Of a DNA stretch of 60,537 nt, positions 17,585-33,142 are shown piece by piece. The stretch comes from Brevinematia bacterium (GTDB taxonomy: Bacteria > Spirochaetota > Brevinematia > DTOW01). Positions within the stretch are counted from its first letter, which is position 1; the number at the start of each line of letters is the position of its first letter. The position numbers and the translations under genes are program-made. Under the pieces are notes generated by a model that searched no databases, was not told the DNA's origin, and saw nothing but the letters and a program-made list of their open reading frames with translations. The stretch lies in NCBI GenBank assembly GCA_039630355.1, contig JBCNVF010000010.1, positions 1-60,537 of the forward strand. The letters run 5' to 3'.

Positions 17585-18907
17585 ATGGAAGAGGACATTG
17601 AGAGTCTTAAGAAACAGTTGGAGGAGAAAGATAGGATCATAAAGGATCTTGAGAAAATTGTGAGGGCTTATGAAGCTGTCTCGGAAATAAGTAGAAATGA
17701 GCTTTTAGACGCATATAAAACCATAGAGGCACAGGAGAGGGTTCAACTTTTGACGCAGTCTGAGATTAGAGAGAGGGATGAGATAATTGAGGCTGAGGAA
17801 AAAGTAATAGAAATGAGTGCTGAAGAGCTTAAGCAAGCGAAGAGAGAAATACTTGCGAGGGAGATTGTAGAGGAGCTTGCTAGGAAGGAACTGCTTGATA
17901 AGGATAAGGTTATAAAAGCTATGGAAATAGTGGCTGATATGATGACAAAGGATATAAAGGATAGAGACAAGATAATCCAGGCTTTTGAGGCTGCAGAGGA
18001 ATTAGCAAGGCAGGAGATTATGAGCCTGAAGAAGGAATCTGAGGCTAAGGAAAGTGTAATTGACCTTGCACAGAAAGAGAGAAAGGAAACGATAGATATA
18101 CTCAAAGCTTATGAAAGTCTTGAGGATTATGCAAGAATAGAGAAGGAGGAAATAATTAAGACGGCAAACTTTCTACTGGAAGTTTTTGTAAACTCTCTAA
18201 TACAGCTTGGACTTATTCCAAAATCTGAGGAGTCAAAGATAAGGACAGTTGCAAGGAACTTAGTTAGAGAGAAGTGGTATCTTGCCTCTCCTAAGGTTGG
18301 AAATATTGATCTCCCAACAGCTTTGAAAATAATAGAAGCTCATGAAATTATAGAGGAGCTTATGAGAAAAGAAAAGATTGAAATGGATAATATAGTCAAA
18401 GCTTATGAAATACTTGATGAAGTGAAAAGGAAGCAGTTTATTGAACTTTATAACATACTGTCCGCTTATGAGAATCTTCAGAGTTATATAATGAAAAATA
18501 GAGAATTTTTTGATAAAGTCATAAAGGCGTATGACAGTGTGCAAGAGCTTGAGAGAGAAGAGAAGATAACTATGGATAAGATTATAAAAGCTCATGAGAT
18601 TGTTGAGGAGTTAGCAAGGCAGGAGCTTATTGAAAAAGATAAGTTAAACTTGGCACATGAGGTTGTTGAGGATCTATCTAGAAAAGAACTACTTGAGAGG
18701 GATAGAATAATCCAAGCACATGAGATAGTAGAAGAATTAGCTAGGCGGGAAATGATACAACTTAGAGAACTTGCTAAAGCACATGAAGTGGTTGAAGAAC
18801 TAGCTAGAAGAGAGCTTATAGAAAGAGACAAGATAATTGATGCTTACGAGAAACTTTCGGAATACACTGCAGAGGAAATTAAGAAACTTAAAGAAAGGAA
18901 GGAATAA
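17585..18907 (+). CDS. coiled-coil protein of seventeen exact 21-residue repeats
   Basis: Not a family I can name. 440 aa, cytosolic, almost entirely helical and charged. The motif A-[aromatic/His/other]-E recurs with no indels every 21 residues: positions 28, 49, 70, 91, 112, 133, 154, 175, then 252, 273, 294, 315, 336, 357, 378, 399 and 420. Typical unit: HEIVEELARQELIEKDKL followed by three residues. The only break (residues about 196-245, containing FLLEVFVNSLIQLGLIP and KWYLASPKVGNIDLP) keeps heptad phase, since 252 minus 175 is 77, eleven heptads. Twenty-one residues are three heptads, so a long regular rod is expected. GGGGGT precedes the ATG. The stop codon abuts the HD-GYP gene on the other strand. 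Confidence 0.8.
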   Translation: MEEDIESLKKQLEEKDRIIKDLEKIVRAYEAVSEISRNELLDAYKTIEAQERVQLLTQSEIRERDEIIEAEEKVIEMSAEELKQAKREILAREIVEELARKELLDKDKVIKAMEIVADMMTKDIKDRDKIIQAFEAAEELARQEIMSLKKESEAKESVIDLAQKERKETIDILKAYESLEDYARIEKEEIIKTANFLLEVFVNSLIQLGLIPKSEESKIRTVARNLVREKWYLASPKVGNIDLPTALKIIEAHEIIEELMRKEKIEMDNIVKAYEILDEVKRKQFIELYNILSAYENLQSYIMKNREFFDKVIKAYDSVQELEREEKITMDKIIKAHEIVEELARQELIEKDKLNLAHEVVEDLSRKELLERDRIIQAHEIVEELARREMIQLRELAKAHEVVEELARRELIERDKIIDAYEKLSEYTAEEIKKLKERKE

Positions 18908-21745
18908 TCATTGTTCTTTATATTTTTCATATATTTCGTTAAACTTATGGTGTATTTCGGTAAAAGCTTGGAGTATGTCAGGATCAAAATGATGAGGTTT
19001 TGTTCTGTGGTTACCCTTTGTTATTATTTCTACAACCCTTTCATGGTCAAATGCGGGTTTATAGGTTCTTGGCGATCTCAAAGCATCGTATATATCTACT
19101 AAGTTTACTATTCTGGCACTTATTGGTGTTTTATCTTTTTCAAGTCCGTAGGGGTATCCACTACCGTCCCATTTTTCATGATGTCCTAAAGCTATGTCTC
19201 TAGCCATAATTAGCTTTTGGTGGTCTCCTAATATTAGAGCACCAGCTATGGTATGCTCTTTCATAATCTCGTACTCTTCTGGAGTTAGCGGGCCAGGTTT
19301 GCGAAGTATTTCTCTCGGTATCTTGAGTTTACCTATATCATGCATCTGAGAGGCATAGTATATTGAGTTAGAAAAATCTTCACTAAATCCCAAATAGCGA
19401 GATATGATTCTTGAGTATTCTCCAACTCTGTATATATGCATACCTGTTTCTTCGTCCATTTCTTCAGCTGCTCTTGCAAGAGATTGCATAGTGTAGATGA
19501 AAGCATTGTCCACTTCTTTTACTTCCTCGTACACTGCTTTTATTAGCAGATAGTTCACAAGTAATGATCTCATTAAATCTATGTCCCATGAGGAAATCTT
19601 AGAGAAAAAGTTGATTCCTATCAGAACTGAATCTTCTATTGAGATTGCTAGAAAGTTGTAGATCACATTTGATATATGGAGTATCTCTTTGGCAAAAGAT
19701 TTGGAAAATTCTGAAGGGGGAATTCCTTCAGTTACATGGTCGGACCACATCACCTTGTTTCTGCCAAACTTCTTTCTAGAGTAAAACTCTAGTGGAATAT
19801 TCAGAGAATCAACAAAAATTACTTGTCTTTCACGCAAAATTGCGAAAACCTTTGAATGTATGAATGTGTTGTTTATCTTACCTACAATCAAAAAGGAAGG
19901 GATATTGATATTCGGTTGGAGAAAGAGCTTGGATAGAATCTCAAACTCAATTTCGTCAAAAGAAGTGCTTTTATATCCTAGAATTTTACTAAGTAGAAGT
20001 GTAGAAGAGGAGCTAAGAGTTATAATACTCTTAAAGGTGTTTTCAATTTTTTTCCTACCCATCAAGCTGTAAGTGATAAAGGAGATAGTGTCATTGAGAT
20101 AGTGAAATTCGTTCTTGAAGAAGATTTGTAAGTCTGCAAGGGATTCTAGAAATTCTTTTGCACTGTTTTCATCGGCTTTGTAAAAGCCAATCACGCAGAA
20201 GATATTTCTTTTTAAGGGATCTGATTTTATATTCTTTATTAAGCTTATTCCAGCCTTATCGTCAACTTCATTATCGCAGATTACCATGTCTATATTTATT
20301 TTTTCTAAAAGCTTTAGAGCTTCGGCGAATGTATTCACACCATAGGTTTCGTAGTCATTCATTACTAATAGGGAGGTAATTGTCTGTTTCACACCTAGGT
20401 CTTTTACAAATAGTAGGACATTGTGGCGCAAGCCTTTAAAGAGGCCCTTTGTAATTGTAGCTTGAGTTTCTAAAAGGAGTAGGTGGAATATCTCTGAGAT
20501 AAAGGTAGTTGTGGATATGTTCATCTCAAATTTATCCTGGGTTGATATAGACACGATGAGCTTTAGGGTATATCCATAGGTTATTGGAATCACTATGTCA
20601 GCATCCAGATCATTAAGGATTCTTTGTAGTTCGGTATCATGGGGTGTAAAGAATCTGTTGGATTTTGAGGTTATTGTGTTTAGCTCCTCCGCTGATATAC
20701 CTAGGTGCTTGATTCTAATAATAGTATTTCCCTTTTCGTCAATAAGGAGTACTGATTTTAGTGTTTTTTCAGTTTCGTTGAAAGTGAATACTTCTATAGT
20801 ATTTTTACCTAAAAATTTTTCTACCGATGTGTGGAGTTTATCTACTATGGTTCCTATCGTTAGGGAGGGAATTTCACTGTCTTTTATATTGCTCAGATAA
20901 TGCTTTATTACGCTAATTGTTATATCATTAACCTTTCTTGTTATCAACTTATGGGATGTTATGCTAAGTAAAGTGGAGAGTAAAAACACAAAGCCAGTGA
21001 TTGGTAGAATTGAAGCTTGTAATAATTCTGAGTTAATCAGTGAAACGATGAAGATGTATAAACTTGGTAAGATGATAAATGTTATACTAAGAAATGATGC
21101 GAAGGTTTTTAACTTTGTCTCTTGAGCTTTTGCGAAAGGGGAGATCAATGAGATTGCAGAATAAAGTAAGGGAGTTAGAGTTAAAGGTAGGGTTATATCT
21201 TGTACATTTTTACTGCCGTTAATCAGTAGTAGAGACACAGAGAGTAGTAATGGTATTGAAATGCTGGTTTCTTCCAAAATTTTGATTGTTGTGATTTCCC
21301 TTCTGAGTGTGAGAAATGATATTACTGCAAAAGATAAGATGATATTGATGAAGGAGGTAGTACCAAATCCTATTTTTTCTGATCCTTTTGTGATAAGAAT
21401 GGCCATAAGTGCTATAGAAGAAAACAATACTGGAAGAAGAATAAACAGCTTTGGATGACTGAGGATATTAGACTTTCCCTTTTTGTTGTCAAGGTATTCT
21501 ACGATCTTGAGGTTTACGATTATTGATGAGAGAAAGAGAAGCAGGAGGATAAAGGTTGTCATGAACATTAAGTCCAAGGCTAGGAGTTGGAACAGGTTTG
21601 CTAGGAAAGAACTGAGAAGTACTACTGATAACAATGTCCACTGAATGAGATTGATAGGTTTTTCTTTCTCTGTTAGAGTAACAAATAAAGAAAATGATAG
21701 TGAAGTGAAAAGTAAAAGTGAGTATAGAAGGTGTGTTTCTATCAT
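18908..21745 (-). CDS. membrane HD-GYP domain protein, probable cyclic-di-GMP phosphodiesterase
   Basis: A 945-aa signalling protein. Residues 1-270 hold about eight hydrophobic helices forming a membrane sensor region. Next comes a GAF-like stretch (VEKFLGKNTIEVFTFNETEKTL onward), then a degenerate receiver-like domain (LLVMNDYETYGVNTFAEALKLL; MVICDNEVDDKAGISLIKNI) that keeps the Asp-containing VICD strand. A further sensor-like region precedes the C-terminal HD-GYP domain (last ~190 residues) with GMHIYRVGEYS, HDIGKLKIP, HHEKWDGSGYP and ARIVNLVDIYDAL all intact. It probably degrades cyclic di-GMP in response to a membrane or intracellular cue. A GAGG ribosome site precedes the ATG. It is convergent and contiguous with the 21-residue-repeat gene. 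Confidence 0.9.
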   Translation of the reverse strand: MIETHLLYSLLLFTSLSFSLFVTLTEKEKPINLIQWTLLSVVLLSSFLANLFQLLALDLMFMTTFILLLLFLSSIIVNLKIVEYLDNKKGKSNILSHPKLFILLPVLFSSIALMAILITKGSEKIGFGTTSFINIILSFAVISFLTLRREITTIKILEETSISIPLLLSVSLLLINGSKNVQDITLPLTLTPLLYSAISLISPFAKAQETKLKTFASFLSITFIILPSLYIFIVSLINSELLQASILPITGFVFLLSTLLSITSHKLITRKVNDITISVIKHYLSNIKDSEIPSLTIGTIVDKLHTSVEKFLGKNTIEVFTFNETEKTLKSVLLIDEKGNTIIRIKHLGISAEELNTITSKSNRFFTPHDTELQRILNDLDADIVIPITYGYTLKLIVSISTQDKFEMNISTTTFISEIFHLLLLETQATITKGLFKGLRHNVLLFVKDLGVKQTITSLLVMNDYETYGVNTFAEALKLLEKINIDMVICDNEVDDKAGISLIKNIKSDPLKRNIFCVIGFYKADENSAKEFLESLADLQIFFKNEFHYLNDTISFITYSLMGRKKIENTFKSIITLSSSSTLLLSKILGYKSTSFDEIEFEILSKLFLQPNINIPSFLIVGKINNTFIHSKVFAILRERQVIFVDSLNIPLEFYSRKKFGRNKVMWSDHVTEGIPPSEFSKSFAKEILHISNVIYNFLAISIEDSVLIGINFFSKISSWDIDLMRSLLVNYLLIKAVYEEVKEVDNAFIYTMQSLARAAEEMDEETGMHIYRVGEYSRIISRYLGFSEDFSNSIYYASQMHDIGKLKIPREILRKPGPLTPEEYEIMKEHTIAGALILGDHQKLIMARDIALGHHEKWDGSGYPYGLEKDKTPISARIVNLVDIYDALRSPRTYKPAFDHERVVEIITKGNHRTKPHHFDPDILQAFTEIHHKFNEIYEKYKEQ

Positions 21746-23387: not shown

Positions 23388-23459
23388 TGGAGATGAGGGG
23401 ATTCGAACCCCCGACCCCTGCCGTGCGAAAGCAGTGCTCTCCCACTGAGCTACATCCCC
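23388..23459 (-). tRNA. tRNA-Ala (anticodon CGC)
   Basis: The minus strand reads GGGGATG acceptor, TA, GCTC/GAGC D-arm, CTGCT-TTCGCAC-GGCAG anticodon arm, and a GGGGG-TTCGAAT-CCCCT T-arm closing on CATCTCC with discriminator A. The loop places CGC at positions 34-36, reading GCG alanine codons. The 3' CCA is not encoded. Complete cloverleaf with one G-T pair in each of the acceptor and anticodon stems. Confidence 0.93.
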
Positions 23460-23467
23460 AGATTGTA

Positions 23468-23899
23468 TTACAGTAGTATAGTTTGGTAGGTAACTAGATG
23501 AAGCAAAGAAAAAATAACAGTCAAAACTCCTACCAAGTCTGCATATTGGTTTCTAATAGCTAGAATTTCGTCCTTCTTTTCTGTGGGTATATTAAGAATT
23601 TGAAGTAGGTAGTGCAGTGAGATGGAAATCCCGGATAGTGTAATCAGAGCCGAAGGAATGGTTGCTCCGAGAATGGTGAGATCTGCACCGGTTACGTTAG
23701 TTCTGAATCCAAAGTTAGGTGAAAATAGGTTCCATATACCAACGAATATTCCTAAAGGACCTATTATCAAATCAAATTTGCTGATCCTGTTCAGGAATCT
23801 TTCAAAGCCTTCGGACTTGATAATCTTTTTCACTAGATCACTGGCGGATAGGAGACCAAAGACTATTCCACTAAGTGAAAGTAAAATTACTCCGATCAC
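23468..23899 (-). CDS. small four-helix membrane protein of unknown function
   Basis: 143 aa with about four hydrophobic segments (IGVILLSLSGIVFGLL; LIIGPLGIFVGIWNLF; IPSALITLSGISISLHYLLQIL; LVGVLTVIFSLLHLVTYQTILL) joined by short polar loops. It has no recognised domain. The start is GTG with AGGGGGTT in front. A TTGAAA(18)TATAAT promoter lies about 40-70 nt upstream, so the short gene is well supported. It ends 8 nt before tRNA-Ala and may be co-transcribed with it. Confidence 0.65.
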   Translation of the reverse strand: MIGVILLSLSGIVFGLLSASDLVKKIIKSEGFERFLNRISKFDLIIGPLGIFVGIWNLFSPNFGFRTNVTGADLTILGATIPSALITLSGISISLHYLLQILNIPTEKKDEILAIRNQYADLVGVLTVIFSLLHLVTYQTILL

Positions 23900-24291: not shown

Positions 24292-26304
24292 ATGAAGATT
24301 GACTACTTCACAATATCTCAGCTTAAAATTCCCGAACTTTATAGATACATTAACCAGAAAAAGAGCTTAGAAGCAAGAAAGGATAGAAAAGATCTGATAC
24401 GAAAGGTTTGGGTTTTCATTTCATCCCTAGGCTTTGAATTCTTTCTATTTTTGATCTGCTTCACAACAGTTGGAGTTTTCCTAAGTCCTATCTTCTCAGC
24501 ACTGGGAGTTGCAGTCTCTTTTCTGTTCGTCTTTCTTAGATATATAAGTTTCAGGGAACTTTCTAAGTTTGAGAAGTTACTCAAGAGCTTTCATCTGGCA
24601 AGAGTTAAGGTAATAAAAGAAGGAAGAACCTTAATTTTAAGTGAGGACGAGATTGAAATTGGGGATATAGTTGCTATTTCAAAGGGAGAAAGAATTCCAT
24701 TTGACTTAAGAGTAACTGAATCTAACAGTCTTATTGTTGACGAATCAAAGGTATTTGGGGAAGAAAGGAGGGTAGGTAAGAGTGCAACTGTTCTTCCGAG
24801 AAAAGACTTTAAGATCTACGAGTTATCAAATGTGATTTTCTCAAACTCGCTGATAGTTAAGGGCAGTGGTAAGGGAATAGTGGTAAATAAGCCTAACCGT
24901 TGTTATGATTTCCCAGACATACAGTTGCAACATCCTAGTTTTCAACAAATCATCTTAACTTTTATTCTTTCTCTGGTTGCATCTTTGGTTGTATTTTATC
25001 TGCAGAAAGATATTTGGTCCACTATAGTGTTTTTCACTACAGTCTTTTTCCTATTCTCTGGAAATAACATAAACTTCTCTTTTGCTTACCTTAAATACCT
25101 TTTTGTCAAAGAACTTCTGTCTCAGGGGATAATACTTCAGAGTATAAATAAAATTAGTGAGTATGGAGAAGTGAATAAGGCTATAATCAAGCTAGATCAG
25201 TATTCCTTTGATCTGTATAGACCAAGTTATTTCATCGTAAGTGAAAACAAGACATACTCAGTTGGGGACTTATTATCCTTGGGTGGCAGGATACCTACTG
25301 AACTAACATACTGTTTTGTTATTTCTAAGGTGGTTCACAACAAGATCAAGGAAGTCTCTTCAAAAATCTTTCTAAACTCAATCATAAATACTCTGTCTTC
25401 AGTAGGACTTGATGAAGAAGTGACAAAGGAAGTTAAAGTCATAGATCTTCAGGTAAGTAGTAATATTCATTCTCTTTCCACAGTAAGACTTAAGTGTGAG
25501 GGAGAAATTTTGCTAGGGGTGATAAGTTTGTCTGCGTATGTGAAACAGTTTGGATCAATAGTGGGTGTAGATAATATGATGGAGGGAATTGTTATACTGA
25601 AAAGGGAAATTTCTGCTACTAGCGATGCTTCTTTACAGCCTATTGTTGTTGCAATATTCAATGAATACCAGATTAAAGCGAAGGAAATTGAAGACTTGGA
25701 AAGGAAAGTTAAGTTTTTCTTCTTGAGTGAGATGACATTTAAGGAGTTAGTTAAACTGTTTAGTGCTTTAGATATAAATGCTTCAAAGTTCTCTGCAGTA
25801 GACACTGACGAGATTCTTGATATCTCTGAGGAACAGAAGGAATTTTTTGTGGAAAAGTTCCAGCTCTTTTTCAATGTCTCCCAGAGGAATCTTTCAGAAC
25901 TGGTTAAGTTACTCTCACGAAATAATGAGATCGCTCTGGACTGCTTCGCGGAGATATCTCAGTCTGACATAGGAATAATGAAAATTCCATACTTCGGCAC
26001 ATTCTTCACCAGAGGAAATTTGGTCCTTTCTACTACGAAAAGTTTCTTACTCCCCTTTCTTCTGATCCAGAAGGCCAATGATTTTGAAAAATCTCTCCAA
26101 TCCTTGAAGTTCAAAGGAATAATGCTACTGCTAACCTCTTTTTTCATAACAACTTTATTATACCTTTATGGATTTTTCTGGATTTCTTTACTTTCACCTA
26201 TCGTTTTAATCTTGATAATCTCGGTTATACCAAGTTATACTAATAGAGTTGCGAGAGAACTGCGGAAGTCTAGGGTTGCGAAGGGAAATAATTTACGAAG
26301 ATGA
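24292..26304 (+). CDS. degenerate P-type ATPase homologue (probable pseudoenzyme)
   Basis: A 670-aa membrane protein aligning by eye along a whole P-type ATPase, with every catalytic motif altered. The actuator domain is clear (IEIGDIVAISKGERIPFDLR at 121-140; VDESKVFGEE at 149-158 where VDESxxTGES is expected). The M4 proline motif is replaced by SGNNI, followed by a recognisable GIILQSINKISEYGEVNKAIIKLDQYSFD, where DKTGT has become DQYSF (Asp302). In place of GDGxND there is SRNNEIALD before AEISQSDIGIM. Two to three C-terminal helices end the protein. No stop or frameshift interrupts it, so it may be a maintained non-pumping protein. The start at ATG 24292 (AGGG upstream) is preferred over TTG 24265. 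A hairpin follows, then sua5. Confidence 0.75.
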   Translation: MKIDYFTISQLKIPELYRYINQKKSLEARKDRKDLIRKVWVFISSLGFEFFLFLICFTTVGVFLSPIFSALGVAVSFLFVFLRYISFRELSKFEKLLKSFHLARVKVIKEGRTLILSEDEIEIGDIVAISKGERIPFDLRVTESNSLIVDESKVFGEERRVGKSATVLPRKDFKIYELSNVIFSNSLIVKGSGKGIVVNKPNRCYDFPDIQLQHPSFQQIILTFILSLVASLVVFYLQKDIWSTIVFFTTVFFLFSGNNINFSFAYLKYLFVKELLSQGIILQSINKISEYGEVNKAIIKLDQYSFDLYRPSYFIVSENKTYSVGDLLSLGGRIPTELTYCFVISKVVHNKIKEVSSKIFLNSIINTLSSVGLDEEVTKEVKVIDLQVSSNIHSLSTVRLKCEGEILLGVISLSAYVKQFGSIVGVDNMMEGIVILKREISATSDASLQPIVVAIFNEYQIKAKEIEDLERKVKFFFLSEMTFKELVKLFSALDINASKFSAVDTDEILDISEEQKEFFVEKFQLFFNVSQRNLSELVKLLSRNNEIALDCFAEISQSDIGIMKIPYFGTFFTRGNLVLSTTKSFLLPFLLIQKANDFEKSLQSLKFKGIMLLLTSFFITTLLYLYGFFWISLLSPIVLILIISVIPSYTNRVARELRKSRVAKGNNLRR

Positions 26305-26317
26305 TTACTCTTCGTAA
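26293..26317 (+). other. strong hairpin between the ATPase-like gene and sua5
   Basis: TTACGAAGA (26293-26301) pairs perfectly with TCTTCGTAA (26309-26317) around a 7-nt loop; the stop codon lies at the start of the loop. There is no T-tract after it, so attenuation or mRNA stabilisation is as likely as termination. Confidence 0.5.
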
Positions 26318-26402: not shown

Positions 26403-27482
26403 ATGCAGGTCTTCACGAGAATAATAAGAGTGAGGAATGAAGAGGTTGAGAGAGAGATAAAGCTCCTTAGGGAAGTTGCTTTAGCTTTAAGAAATGGTGA
26501 GGTTGTTGCCTTTCCTACTGAAACTGTGTATGGGCTCGGTGCTAACGCAACTAACTCCGAAGCTGTGAAAAAGATATTTGAACTTAAAAATAGACCCAGT
26601 GATAACCCTCTGATTGTCCATGTTAGTTCAAAGGAGGAGATAGGTAAATGTGCTGTAGTGTCAAACGAGGTTGAAGAAACGATAATCAATACCCTTATGC
26701 CAGGTCCGATAACTGTGATTCTTAGAAAGAAGGAAGTGATCTCCCCCTTAGTAACTGCTGGGCTTGACACAGTGGGTATAAGAGTTCCTTACAATACGAT
26801 TGCCCAAAAGTTGATAGAACTATCAGGAGTTCCAGTTTGTGCTCCAAGTGCGAACATATCCGGAAAACCTAGTGCTACCGATTCACAAACCGTTATAGAA
26901 GAATTCTCAGGTAGAATCCCATTCATAATAGATGGAGGTAGGACTCACATAGGAATTGAGTCTACTGTTGTGATGGTAAAAGAAGAGGAAAGAAGATTCT
27001 CAGTTCTAATTCTAAGACCAGGATTTGTGACGAAGGAAGACATTGAGGAAGCTATAAACACTAGACGGTTTTCAAAACCTGTGGAAATCAACTATTCTGA
27101 AGAGTTTTCTGTAGACACTCCACTATCACCCGGACAGAAGTACAGACATTATTCTCCTGTGTCACATGTAGTAATAGTTAAGAATATAAAAAACATAGAA
27201 CCTATTGTCAAGGAGCTTAGGAACGGAAAAATAGGGATTCTCGGGAGACCTAAGTTTCTAAAGGAGGTTAGAAGATTTCTAGAATATATCAACGTAAAGA
27301 ACATCCTGGAAATTGAGTGGTGTAAATATGATTTGATAGATTGCGCAAGGAATCTGTTTTTTGCCTACAGAATGTTTGACAGGGAAAATGCTGTTTTAAT
27401 ACTTGTGGAGAACCTTGAAGAAAGCGGAATAGGGTATTCAATAATGAATAGAGTAAAGAAATCAGCGACTTATATAGTCTGA
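26403..27482 (+). CDS. sua5: threonylcarbamoyl-AMP synthase (Sua5/YrdC/YwlC)
   Basis: Makes threonylcarbamoyl-AMP from threonine, bicarbonate and ATP for the t6A37 modification of ANN-decoding tRNAs. The YrdC domain is intact: GEVVAFPTETVYGLGANATN near residues 30-50, KNRPSDNPLIVHV near 62-74, APSANISGKPSAT near 142-154 and IESTVV. The extra C-terminal Sua5 domain (LSPGQKYRHYSPV and after) makes it a full-length Sua5 of 359 aa. A longer frame starts at TTG 26337, but the in-frame ATG 26403 starts where family members start. It overlaps the convergent ABC ATPase gene by 13 bp. Confidence 0.92.
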   Translation: MQVFTRIIRVRNEEVEREIKLLREVALALRNGEVVAFPTETVYGLGANATNSEAVKKIFELKNRPSDNPLIVHVSSKEEIGKCAVVSNEVEETIINTLMPGPITVILRKKEVISPLVTAGLDTVGIRVPYNTIAQKLIELSGVPVCAPSANISGKPSATDSQTVIEEFSGRIPFIIDGGRTHIGIESTVVMVKEEERRFSVLILRPGFVTKEDIEEAINTRRFSKPVEINYSEEFSVDTPLSPGQKYRHYSPVSHVVIVKNIKNIEPIVKELRNGKIGILGRPKFLKEVRRFLEYINVKNILEIEWCKYDLIDCARNLFFAYRMFDRENAVLILVENLEESGIGYSIMNRVKKSATYIV

Positions 27483-31063: not shown

Positions 31064-33142
31064 ATGAGATATGTTCTGAAAAATTTGGACTGCCCAAGTT
31101 GTGCAGTAAGAATAGAAGAAAAGCTCAGAAGCAAGGGGATAAAAGATGCTAGAGTAGATTTCTCAACTTCTTATCTTTTAACCCAAGAAGAAGACACTAG
31201 AAAGATAGAGCAGATTGTAAGAGAAGTTGATAGTGAAATTGTGGTTATACCCGAAAGTAACAAAACGAAGGATAAGGAAAAGGTAGACTTACAAAACGTC
31301 ATCCTTACCTTTTTGCCGTTTATCCTAACCATAATCTATAGAATCGTTCAGGACAAGCTACACTCCCTACCAATGCTTGGATACCTGGTAGTGATAGGAA
31401 TACTTTGTGTGGGAGGTGGTAGGATTTTCTATCAGGCATACAGAAGGGTGATTTCTGGGAATTTCTTCAACGAATACACGATGATAACAGTTGCAACGAT
31501 TTCTGCTATTCTACTGAATGAGGTGTTTGAGGGGTTACTACTTATAACGCTCTTTAACATAGGGCTATTCCTTGAGGATTTAGCTGTGAGAAAGTCAAGG
31601 GAAAGAATTATCTCAGGGGTTACGGAGATCTTTGGTAGAGCTAGGATAAAACTTTACGGTAATGAAATCAAAGAAGTGGATGTCAAGGATCTAAACATAG
31701 GGGATATAGTTGTTGCAAGGCCTGGTGAGAGGATACCAGTGGATGGAGAAATAGTGAAAGGGAGTGCTTTTATTGATAAGTCTTCAATAACTGGTGAGAG
31801 CACTCCCGAAAATGTTACAGTTGGAGATAAGGTTACTGCTGGTAGTATAAACTTAGATGGTCTGCTTGAGATAAAGGTTCTTTCTCCATTTGAAGATACA
31901 ATACTCTACAAGATAATTGAGGAGATACAAGGTAGCGGAAACACTACAAAGGCTGAGAGATTTATAACTAGGCTAGCTAAGGTATATACACCTTTAGTGA
32001 TGTCTTTCGCATTCATTGTTTCTGTGGTTCCCCCAGTTGCCTTGGGAACGTATAACTTCAGCGAGTGGATTTACAAAGGGCTTATAATACTTGCAGTCTC
32101 ATGTCCTTGTGCGATAGTGATAAGTGTGCCCTTGACATATTTCAAGTCAGTAGGCGTTCTAGCAAGCAAGGGGATAGTTGTAAAAAATACGGTTGCAGTT
32201 GACAAGTTTTCTGAAATTAAGGTGATGTTTTTTGACAAAACGGGAACGGTGACCAAAAGCAAGCTCTCAGTTGAAAGAATAGTTCCCGTAAAGGGAGTAA
32301 CCAATGAGGAAATACTGGAAGTTCCGTTGGCAATGGGTAGATTCTCATCCCATAGGCTATTGAAATCCATACTTCACTTTTCAAACTACGGAGAACTATC
32401 GGTTGAAGTAAGTGATGTAAGAGAAATTGCTGGCTATGGAGTGGTAGGTAGATTAAATGGTGAGGATGTGCTTGTAGGTAATGACAAGTTGCTTCACGAA
32501 AAAGACATAAAACATGAGGTATGTGTGAATGACTCAACAGTCGTGCATATAGCGAAAGGTGGGAGATACTTAGGATTTATCTCTTTTTCTGATGAAGAAA
32601 GAGAAGAGGCGGAAGAAGTTATAAAGGAGCTAAGAAGGCTTGGTCTGAAAAAGATATTCATCCTGACAGGTGATAACGAAAAAAACGCTATGAAGATTGG
32701 TAAGAGTATAAACGCAGATGATGTGTTTTTCGGTAAATCCCCTGAAGAGAAGGCTAAGATAATAGAAGAGTTTGGAAAAGAGTATAGAGGATATGTAGGC
32801 TTCGTGGGAGATGGGATAAACGATAGTATGGCTATGTTGAAGGCAGATCTAGGCATATCTTTCAACACACCCCTAAACTCACTATTACACTCCGCTTCGG
32901 ATGTAGTGATAAACAGTAGTAGTCTTAGGAAAATCTTAGAAGCAATTGTAATATCGCGCACAACCAAAAGGTTGGTTATACAGAACATACTCCTTGCTCT
33001 GGGTATCAAGCTGACAGTAGTAGTTCTGGGAATGTTCGGTATGATGTGGCTGTGGATGGCAGTTTTAGCAGATTCAGGCTCAATATTGTTAACTATCGCA
33101 AATACAGTCCTTAGGAGCTTTTCTAAAAATTCTCATCACTGA
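31064..33142 (+). CDS. heavy-metal P1B-type ATPase (ZntA/CadA-like exporter)
   Basis: A 692-aa inner-membrane pump exporting a soft or transition metal. An N-terminal HMA domain with LDCPSCAVRIEEKL (residues 8-21), six to eight helices, actuator TGES in SSITGESTPENV near 244, metal-binding CPC in AVSCPCAIVISVP near 348, phosphorylation site FFDKTGTVTKSK near 388, and GDGINDSMAMLKADLGIS near 583 are all intact. The CPC motif plus a CxxC-type HMA domain suits Zn/Cd/Pb or a related ion; the ion cannot be fixed here. No regulator lies beside it. This functional enzyme contrasts with the motif-less homologue at 24.3 kb. Confidence 0.93.
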   Translation: MRYVLKNLDCPSCAVRIEEKLRSKGIKDARVDFSTSYLLTQEEDTRKIEQIVREVDSEIVVIPESNKTKDKEKVDLQNVILTFLPFILTIIYRIVQDKLHSLPMLGYLVVIGILCVGGGRIFYQAYRRVISGNFFNEYTMITVATISAILLNEVFEGLLLITLFNIGLFLEDLAVRKSRERIISGVTEIFGRARIKLYGNEIKEVDVKDLNIGDIVVARPGERIPVDGEIVKGSAFIDKSSITGESTPENVTVGDKVTAGSINLDGLLEIKVLSPFEDTILYKIIEEIQGSGNTTKAERFITRLAKVYTPLVMSFAFIVSVVPPVALGTYNFSEWIYKGLIILAVSCPCAIVISVPLTYFKSVGVLASKGIVVKNTVAVDKFSEIKVMFFDKTGTVTKSKLSVERIVPVKGVTNEEILEVPLAMGRFSSHRLLKSILHFSNYGELSVEVSDVREIAGYGVVGRLNGEDVLVGNDKLLHEKDIKHEVCVNDSTVVHIAKGGRYLGFISFSDEEREEAEEVIKELRRLGLKKIFILTGDNEKNAMKIGKSINADDVFFGKSPEEKAKIIEEFGKEYRGYVGFVGDGINDSMAMLKADLGISFNTPLNSLLHSASDVVINSSSLRKILEAIVISRTTKRLVIQNILLALGIKLTVVVLGMFGMMWLWMAVLADSGSILLTIANTVLRSFSKNSHH

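Follow-up and report, generated by a model that had tools for sequence, protein, structure and literature searches.

An invariant DKTGT motif is what usually defines a P-type ATPase. The 60,537-nucleotide stretch of DNA from a Brevinematia bacterium analyzed here (the window) contains a gene that raises the question of what a P-type ATPase homolog can be when this motif is lost, yet the gene is kept. The gene (24292..26304, plus strand) is an uninterrupted frame of 670 codons, as judged from the open reading frame and its translation, and its start codon (ATG at 24292) matches the start of the orthologs, with which it makes up a family of five members. An earlier note on this DNA had described it as a full-length P-type ATPase homolog with an intact frame and all catalytic motifs lost. 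The intact frame was borne out; "full-length" was not, as the protein ends after M5–M6 and is considerably shorter (670 aa) than the active P2 homologs of the same class (862–931 aa). It descends from P2A-type pumps, its family has a single origin and has lost the signature motifs, and the purifying selection acting on it is strongest in the A domain. On balance, we lean toward reading it as a family-wide, P2A-derived pseudo-pump, which would act as a membrane-anchored regulator or scaffold working via its A domain.

Layout of the protein and fate of the signature motifs

The protein comprises a P2-type N terminus, M1–M4, the actuator (A) domain, and a P/N region that is shortened; it closes with one more pair of helices, M5–M6. 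The N-terminal segment (24292..24357, plus strand, as are all parts of the gene; IDYFxxSQLKxxELYxY) is near-invariant in the orthologs and aligns with the N termini of P2 pumps (e.g., 'TPWHALKLTEVYETL' of locus L103). It is followed by the M1–M2 region (residues 41–99; 24412..24588), which is only 24–31% identical between species, and by the A domain (residues 100–203; 24589..24900), which is 62–66% identical between species and also matches PDB sequences. The A-domain landmarks recognized in the earlier note were confirmed by a match to PF00122 (residues 104–200, E 1.8e-13, 50.8 bits compared with a cut-off of 28.1), the sole Pfam match of the protein; its C-terminal half has none. M3–M4 (residues 213–277; 24928..25122) lacks PEGLP, and the reduced N-domain–like stretch (residues 330–470; 25279..25701), the homology of which was not detected independently and for which the structural model has low confidence, lacks KGA. 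The last hydrophobic pair, M5–M6 (residues 605–657; 26104..26262), brings the number of hydrophobic segments to six; M7–M10 are absent from the sequence.

Alignments agreed with the earlier note that TGES reads FGEE, the M4 PEGL-type motif SGNN, and DKTGT DQYSF in the window copy. Across the five N-terminal copies, the TGE position (FGE in the window copy, residues 155–157; 24754..24762) reads F[GN]E, that is, FGE in four and FNE in one (G001; locus L066, 2871–3668); thus, not even the glycine of TGE is fixed, whereas the glutamate (Glu157) is kept in 5/5. The DKTGT position (DQYSF, residues 302–306; 25195..25209) reads D[QNLS][YFS]SF in the four C-terminal copies (DQYSF, DNFSF, DLSSF, and DSFSF): Asp302, Ser305, and Phe306 are invariant, and of DKTGT only the aspartate is retained. 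The PEGLP position in M4 reads LSLMR, ISNRN, and LSSPS in the orthologs. At the TGD position (motif II; SEM in the window copy), the variants are SEM, TEL, TEM, and SDL, so that Ser479 (25726..25728) is Ser or Thr throughout. The nucleotide-binding KGA motif was not found in any of the four C-terminal copies; its lysine is stated to be missing from P1B and P6 pumps, too, and hence is not universal (PMC10654040). The GDGxND (TGDGVND) loop, which the earlier note had read as RNNEIALD, is not substituted but mostly deleted: in the profile alignment it is shorter by ∼6 residues, NNEIAL aligns to the strand preceding it (HIVAM), and SDIGI to ADVGI following it.

The intact P1B heavy-metal pump ∼5 kb away (31064..33142, plus strand), correctly pointed out before as an internal control, keeps TGES, DKTGT, and GDGxND. 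In the window genome, PF00122 matches only this pump and the pseudo-pump, that is, no active P2-type pump. Hence, "paralog", the term used previously, is loose: besides the pseudo-pump, the genome encodes the P1B pump but no other P2-type pump.

P2A ancestry

Ranking against NCBIfam placed PMR1/SERCA-type P2A calcium pumps first (residues 49–200), and a profile of the five members searched against the PDB returned LMCA1 of Listeria first (6zhf, E 1.3e-16, profile positions 31–213). The P-domain half (residues 470–612) was collinear with that of active pumps, with a hhalign score of 27.5 (four copies against eleven active pumps) that was equaled in 0/150 column shuffles. Compared alone with the active pumps, neither the first P-domain piece nor the N-like stretch scored better than shuffles did (61/150 null scores were as high for the N-like stretch). 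A structural model computed from two family sequences only was uninformative (mean pLDDT 35). When active P2 pumps were included in the alignment, mean pLDDT rose to 62 (77–87 for residues 1–20, mostly 72–89 for residues 100–200), and the model matched P2 pumps from the N terminus to M6 (Foldseek E 6e-21; VIA Z up to 17.5, rmsd 12.8 over 509 residues), but the active pumps in the alignment partly impose this fold; therefore, we regard the model as consistent with a P-type fold and as nothing beyond that. By descent, the protein is a P2A relative; on functional grounds, it should not be classed among P-type ATPases, since the motifs defining them were looked for and are not there.

Distribution and single origin

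The gene is present in 5/5 genomes of the spirochaete family. The window genome is very probably that of a spirochaete, with four matches to the FlaA family, for which 14 control genomes gave none. It is complete in the window genome, G002, and G003, split by contig ends in G001, and cut by a contig end in G004, and no readable copy keeps DKTGT. The remaining 13 genomes of the class, like a phylum-wide sample of 296 genomes, yielded only matches that are far weaker and restricted to the M1–M4/A-domain part. The phylum-level matches to the five-member profile extend to position 297, just short of the DKTGT position; at every P-type ATPase locus that was fetched from outside the clade and covers the site (several dozen genes, not all of the phylum matches listed), DKTGT is kept. 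When 84,980 bacterial and archaeal species were screened by peptide pattern, only the G001 copy came up, although this method required exact patterns and could miss distant copies outside the phylum. In the phylogenetic tree, the five members (G004 being represented by its A domain, the only part readable for this comparison) form one clade on a long branch with support of 100/99. Because they do, a single loss of the motif before the two genera split would be the simplest reading. Owing to the same long branch, the tree did not place the sister group of the clade among P2 pumps.

Acidic residues that persist

The earlier claim that all catalytic motifs were lost holds for the motif signatures but not for every residue within them. 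Besides Glu157 and the Ser/Thr of motif II, Asp302 is kept in 4/4 copies and was placed on the aspartate of DKTGT by two alignment methods, and Asp550-x-x-x-Glu554 (25939..25953), near the shortened GDGxND loop, is invariant in the four copies, with ambiguous exact register: a local profile alignment placed Asp550 on the first aspartate of GDGxND, and other alignments near the end of the loop. Since these conserved acids persist, we refrain from claiming that every catalytic residue is gone.

They are also the ground for the main rival to the pseudo-pump reading, namely, that a minimal HAD site is left in which Asp302, Ser/Thr479, and Asp550/Glu554 bind Mg2+ and phosphate or a phosphoryl group, making the protein a phospho-sensor or a slow phosphotransfer switch on which Glu157 still acts. 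Candidates for HAD motifs I, II, and IV are indeed conserved in the four copies, Asp302, Asp550, and Glu554 belong to the 57/316 columns (18%) of the P/N region that are invariant, and animal ERMA/TMEM94 reportedly needs its Asp427 despite reading DKQGIL and GSSANL (PMC13322241). However, the Lys, Thr, Gly, and Thr of DKTGT, the glycines of GDG, and KGA are all lost, as is the position of the motif III lysine (the basic residue shifts), and the ambiguous motif IV lies in a neighborhood modeled with pLDDT <60. Moreover, 16/40 acidic residues of the P/N region stay acidic in all four copies, which makes the retention of Asp302, Ser/Thr479, Asp550/Glu554, and Glu157 a suggestive, not a strong, hint of a surviving site. 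We consider this rival a serious candidate, if an unlikely one. A combination of both readings, in which the P2A pump would have become a six-helix signaling or scaffold switch with an A domain responding to phosphate or Mg2+ at the stripped-down HAD site (Asp302, Ser479, and Asp550/Glu554) without any pumping, appears to us quite unlikely.

Constraint by domain and selection

Between the window copy and those of G002 and G003, the A domain is 62–66% identical, the P/N region 39%, and the membrane regions 24–35%. In pairs of active pumps, identities in the A domain and the membrane are alike (0.63 compared with 0.57–0.72 in one pair; 0.69 compared with 0.65–0.76 in another, the highest value being that of M5M6); in more diverged active pairs, M3–M6 lags behind the A domain (0.26–0.27 compared with 0.41). 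Because the gap observed here is absent from the former pairs, constraint has shifted away from the ion path and onto the A domain, a pattern that speaks against transport.

The same comparison bears on the notion that the protein is a passive transporter or a lipid-handling membrane protein using the P-type membrane core without ATP. M1–M6 are present, and TMEM94 holds a lipid in its P-type–like core and was found by one group to have no ATPase activity (PMC12134183). Yet, of all parts of the protein, the membrane segments are conserved least, conservation does not extend to the M4 site, and M7–M10 are missing, so that we deem this notion improbable.

Pairwise codon models strongly rejected omega = 1 in every whole-gene and half-gene pair (likelihood-ratio statistic 42–262); because dS is saturated, the low omega values should not be read as measurements. 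At this saturated synonymous divergence, neither stops nor frameshifts occur in the three complete copies and three partial pieces. A decaying gene without function is hardly credible and was refuted by the intact frames, the codon models, and the conserved A domain, even though the pseudo-pump evolves faster than its neighbors (40–46% identity to the same-genus copies, compared with 66–89% for Sua5, an ABC ATPase, and S3).

Neither of the two outcomes that the earlier note had named as contrary to a maintained inactive homolog, that is, dN/dS near 1 or orthologs that keep DKTGT, was obtained, and its view that decay is not recent is supported by both the orthologs and the codon models. Recent decay was ruled out by the several assemblies together with the codon analysis, and chance, as well as an assembly or sequencing error, by the loss of the motif in separate assemblies of the family.

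Genomic neighborhood

The next gene downstream, encoding the Sua5/TsaC threonylcarbamoyl-AMP synthase (26403..27482, plus strand), follows the pseudo-pump gene in the window genome, G001 (where the frames overlap), and G003 (where they are 2 bases apart), while the upstream genes vary between genomes. Sua5, a housekeeping gene, is the only recurrent neighbor and is not found beside the G002 copy, which counts against the regulator or scaffold reading; the context provides a weak link to Sua5 only, from which we draw no function.

Other features of the window were recorded in passing. A perfect 9-bp inverted repeat (26293–26317) lies across the pseudo-pump gene's stop codon; a scan classed it as terminator-like for the minus strand alone. 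A 143-aa hydrophobic protein without Pfam match is encoded divergently upstream of that gene (23468–23899, minus strand), with a tRNA gene (23388–23459) beside it. A 440-aa protein (17585–18907, plus strand) contains imperfect coiled-coil–like repeats (around 'DKIIxAHEIVEELARRE') and has no Pfam match. The 945-aa membrane protein encoded at 18908–21745 (minus strand) has a C-terminal HD-GYP-type domain (HD_5) and a weak receiver-domain match in its middle; it is probably a cyclic-di-GMP signaling protein.

Comparison with known systems

Bacterial P2A Ca2+-ATPases (LMCA1/lmo0841; PMR1/SPCA type) share with the pseudo-pump the N-terminal segment, the A domain, M1–M4, the collinear P-domain half, and M5–M6, and pumps of the LMCA1/PMR1 type are its best matches in both sequence and model. 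Unlike them, it lacks DKTGT, TGES, PEGLP, KGA, GDGxND, and M7–M10, and its membrane core is poorly conserved. Animal TMEM94/ERMA resembles it in combining P-type architecture with an altered DKTGT, loss of TGES, an altered GDGVND, and one retained aspartate (PMC12134183, PMC13322241). That protein, however, is eukaryotic, has ten helices, keeps Asp-Lys (DKQGI), reads GSSANL in the loop, and misses the whole TGE loop, whereas the pseudo-pump has six hydrophobic segments, DQYSF, and a shortened loop, and neither the DKQGI nor the GSSANL signature. The function of TMEM94/ERMA is itself disputed: to the lack of ATPase activity (PMC12134183) stands opposed a report of ATP-dependent Mg2+ uptake requiring Asp427 (PMC13322241). 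The apicomplexan guanylyl cyclase PfGC-beta bears a degenerate P4-ATPase domain (PMC6592433), and is thus another case of a retained gene with a P-type domain from which most signature residues are gone; in contrast to the stand-alone, bacterial, P2-type, six-helix pseudo-pump, it is of P4 type and fused to a cyclase. A limited search of open-access full texts returned no described example of a bacterial pseudo-P-type ATPase.

A P-type scaffold, most likely without the pump

That the motifs were lost, yet the gene has long been under selection, suggests reuse beyond pumping. According to the pseudo-pump reading, a bacterial P2A-type (LMCA1/PMR1-like), calcium-type pump would have lost DKTGT, KGA, PEGLP, most of the GDGxND loop, and M7–M10 in the ancestor of the spirochaete family, and would thereafter have been retained as a membrane-anchored, non-pumping protein. 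ATP-driven transport would then be absent. The A domain, together with the N-terminal segment, could provide an interaction surface, the reduced P/N region could position the protein or sense a ligand, and the membrane helices would mainly serve as the anchor. A regulator or scaffold function is what such an arrangement most likely supports, and the sensor, scaffold, or regulator role raised by the earlier note is, likewise, one that the protein might have. As a stand-alone, family-wide bacterial homolog that is under selection without the signature, it is nature's own experiment on what this scaffold can do minus the cycle, and a bacterial counterpart with which the disputed TMEM94/ERMA of animals can be compared.
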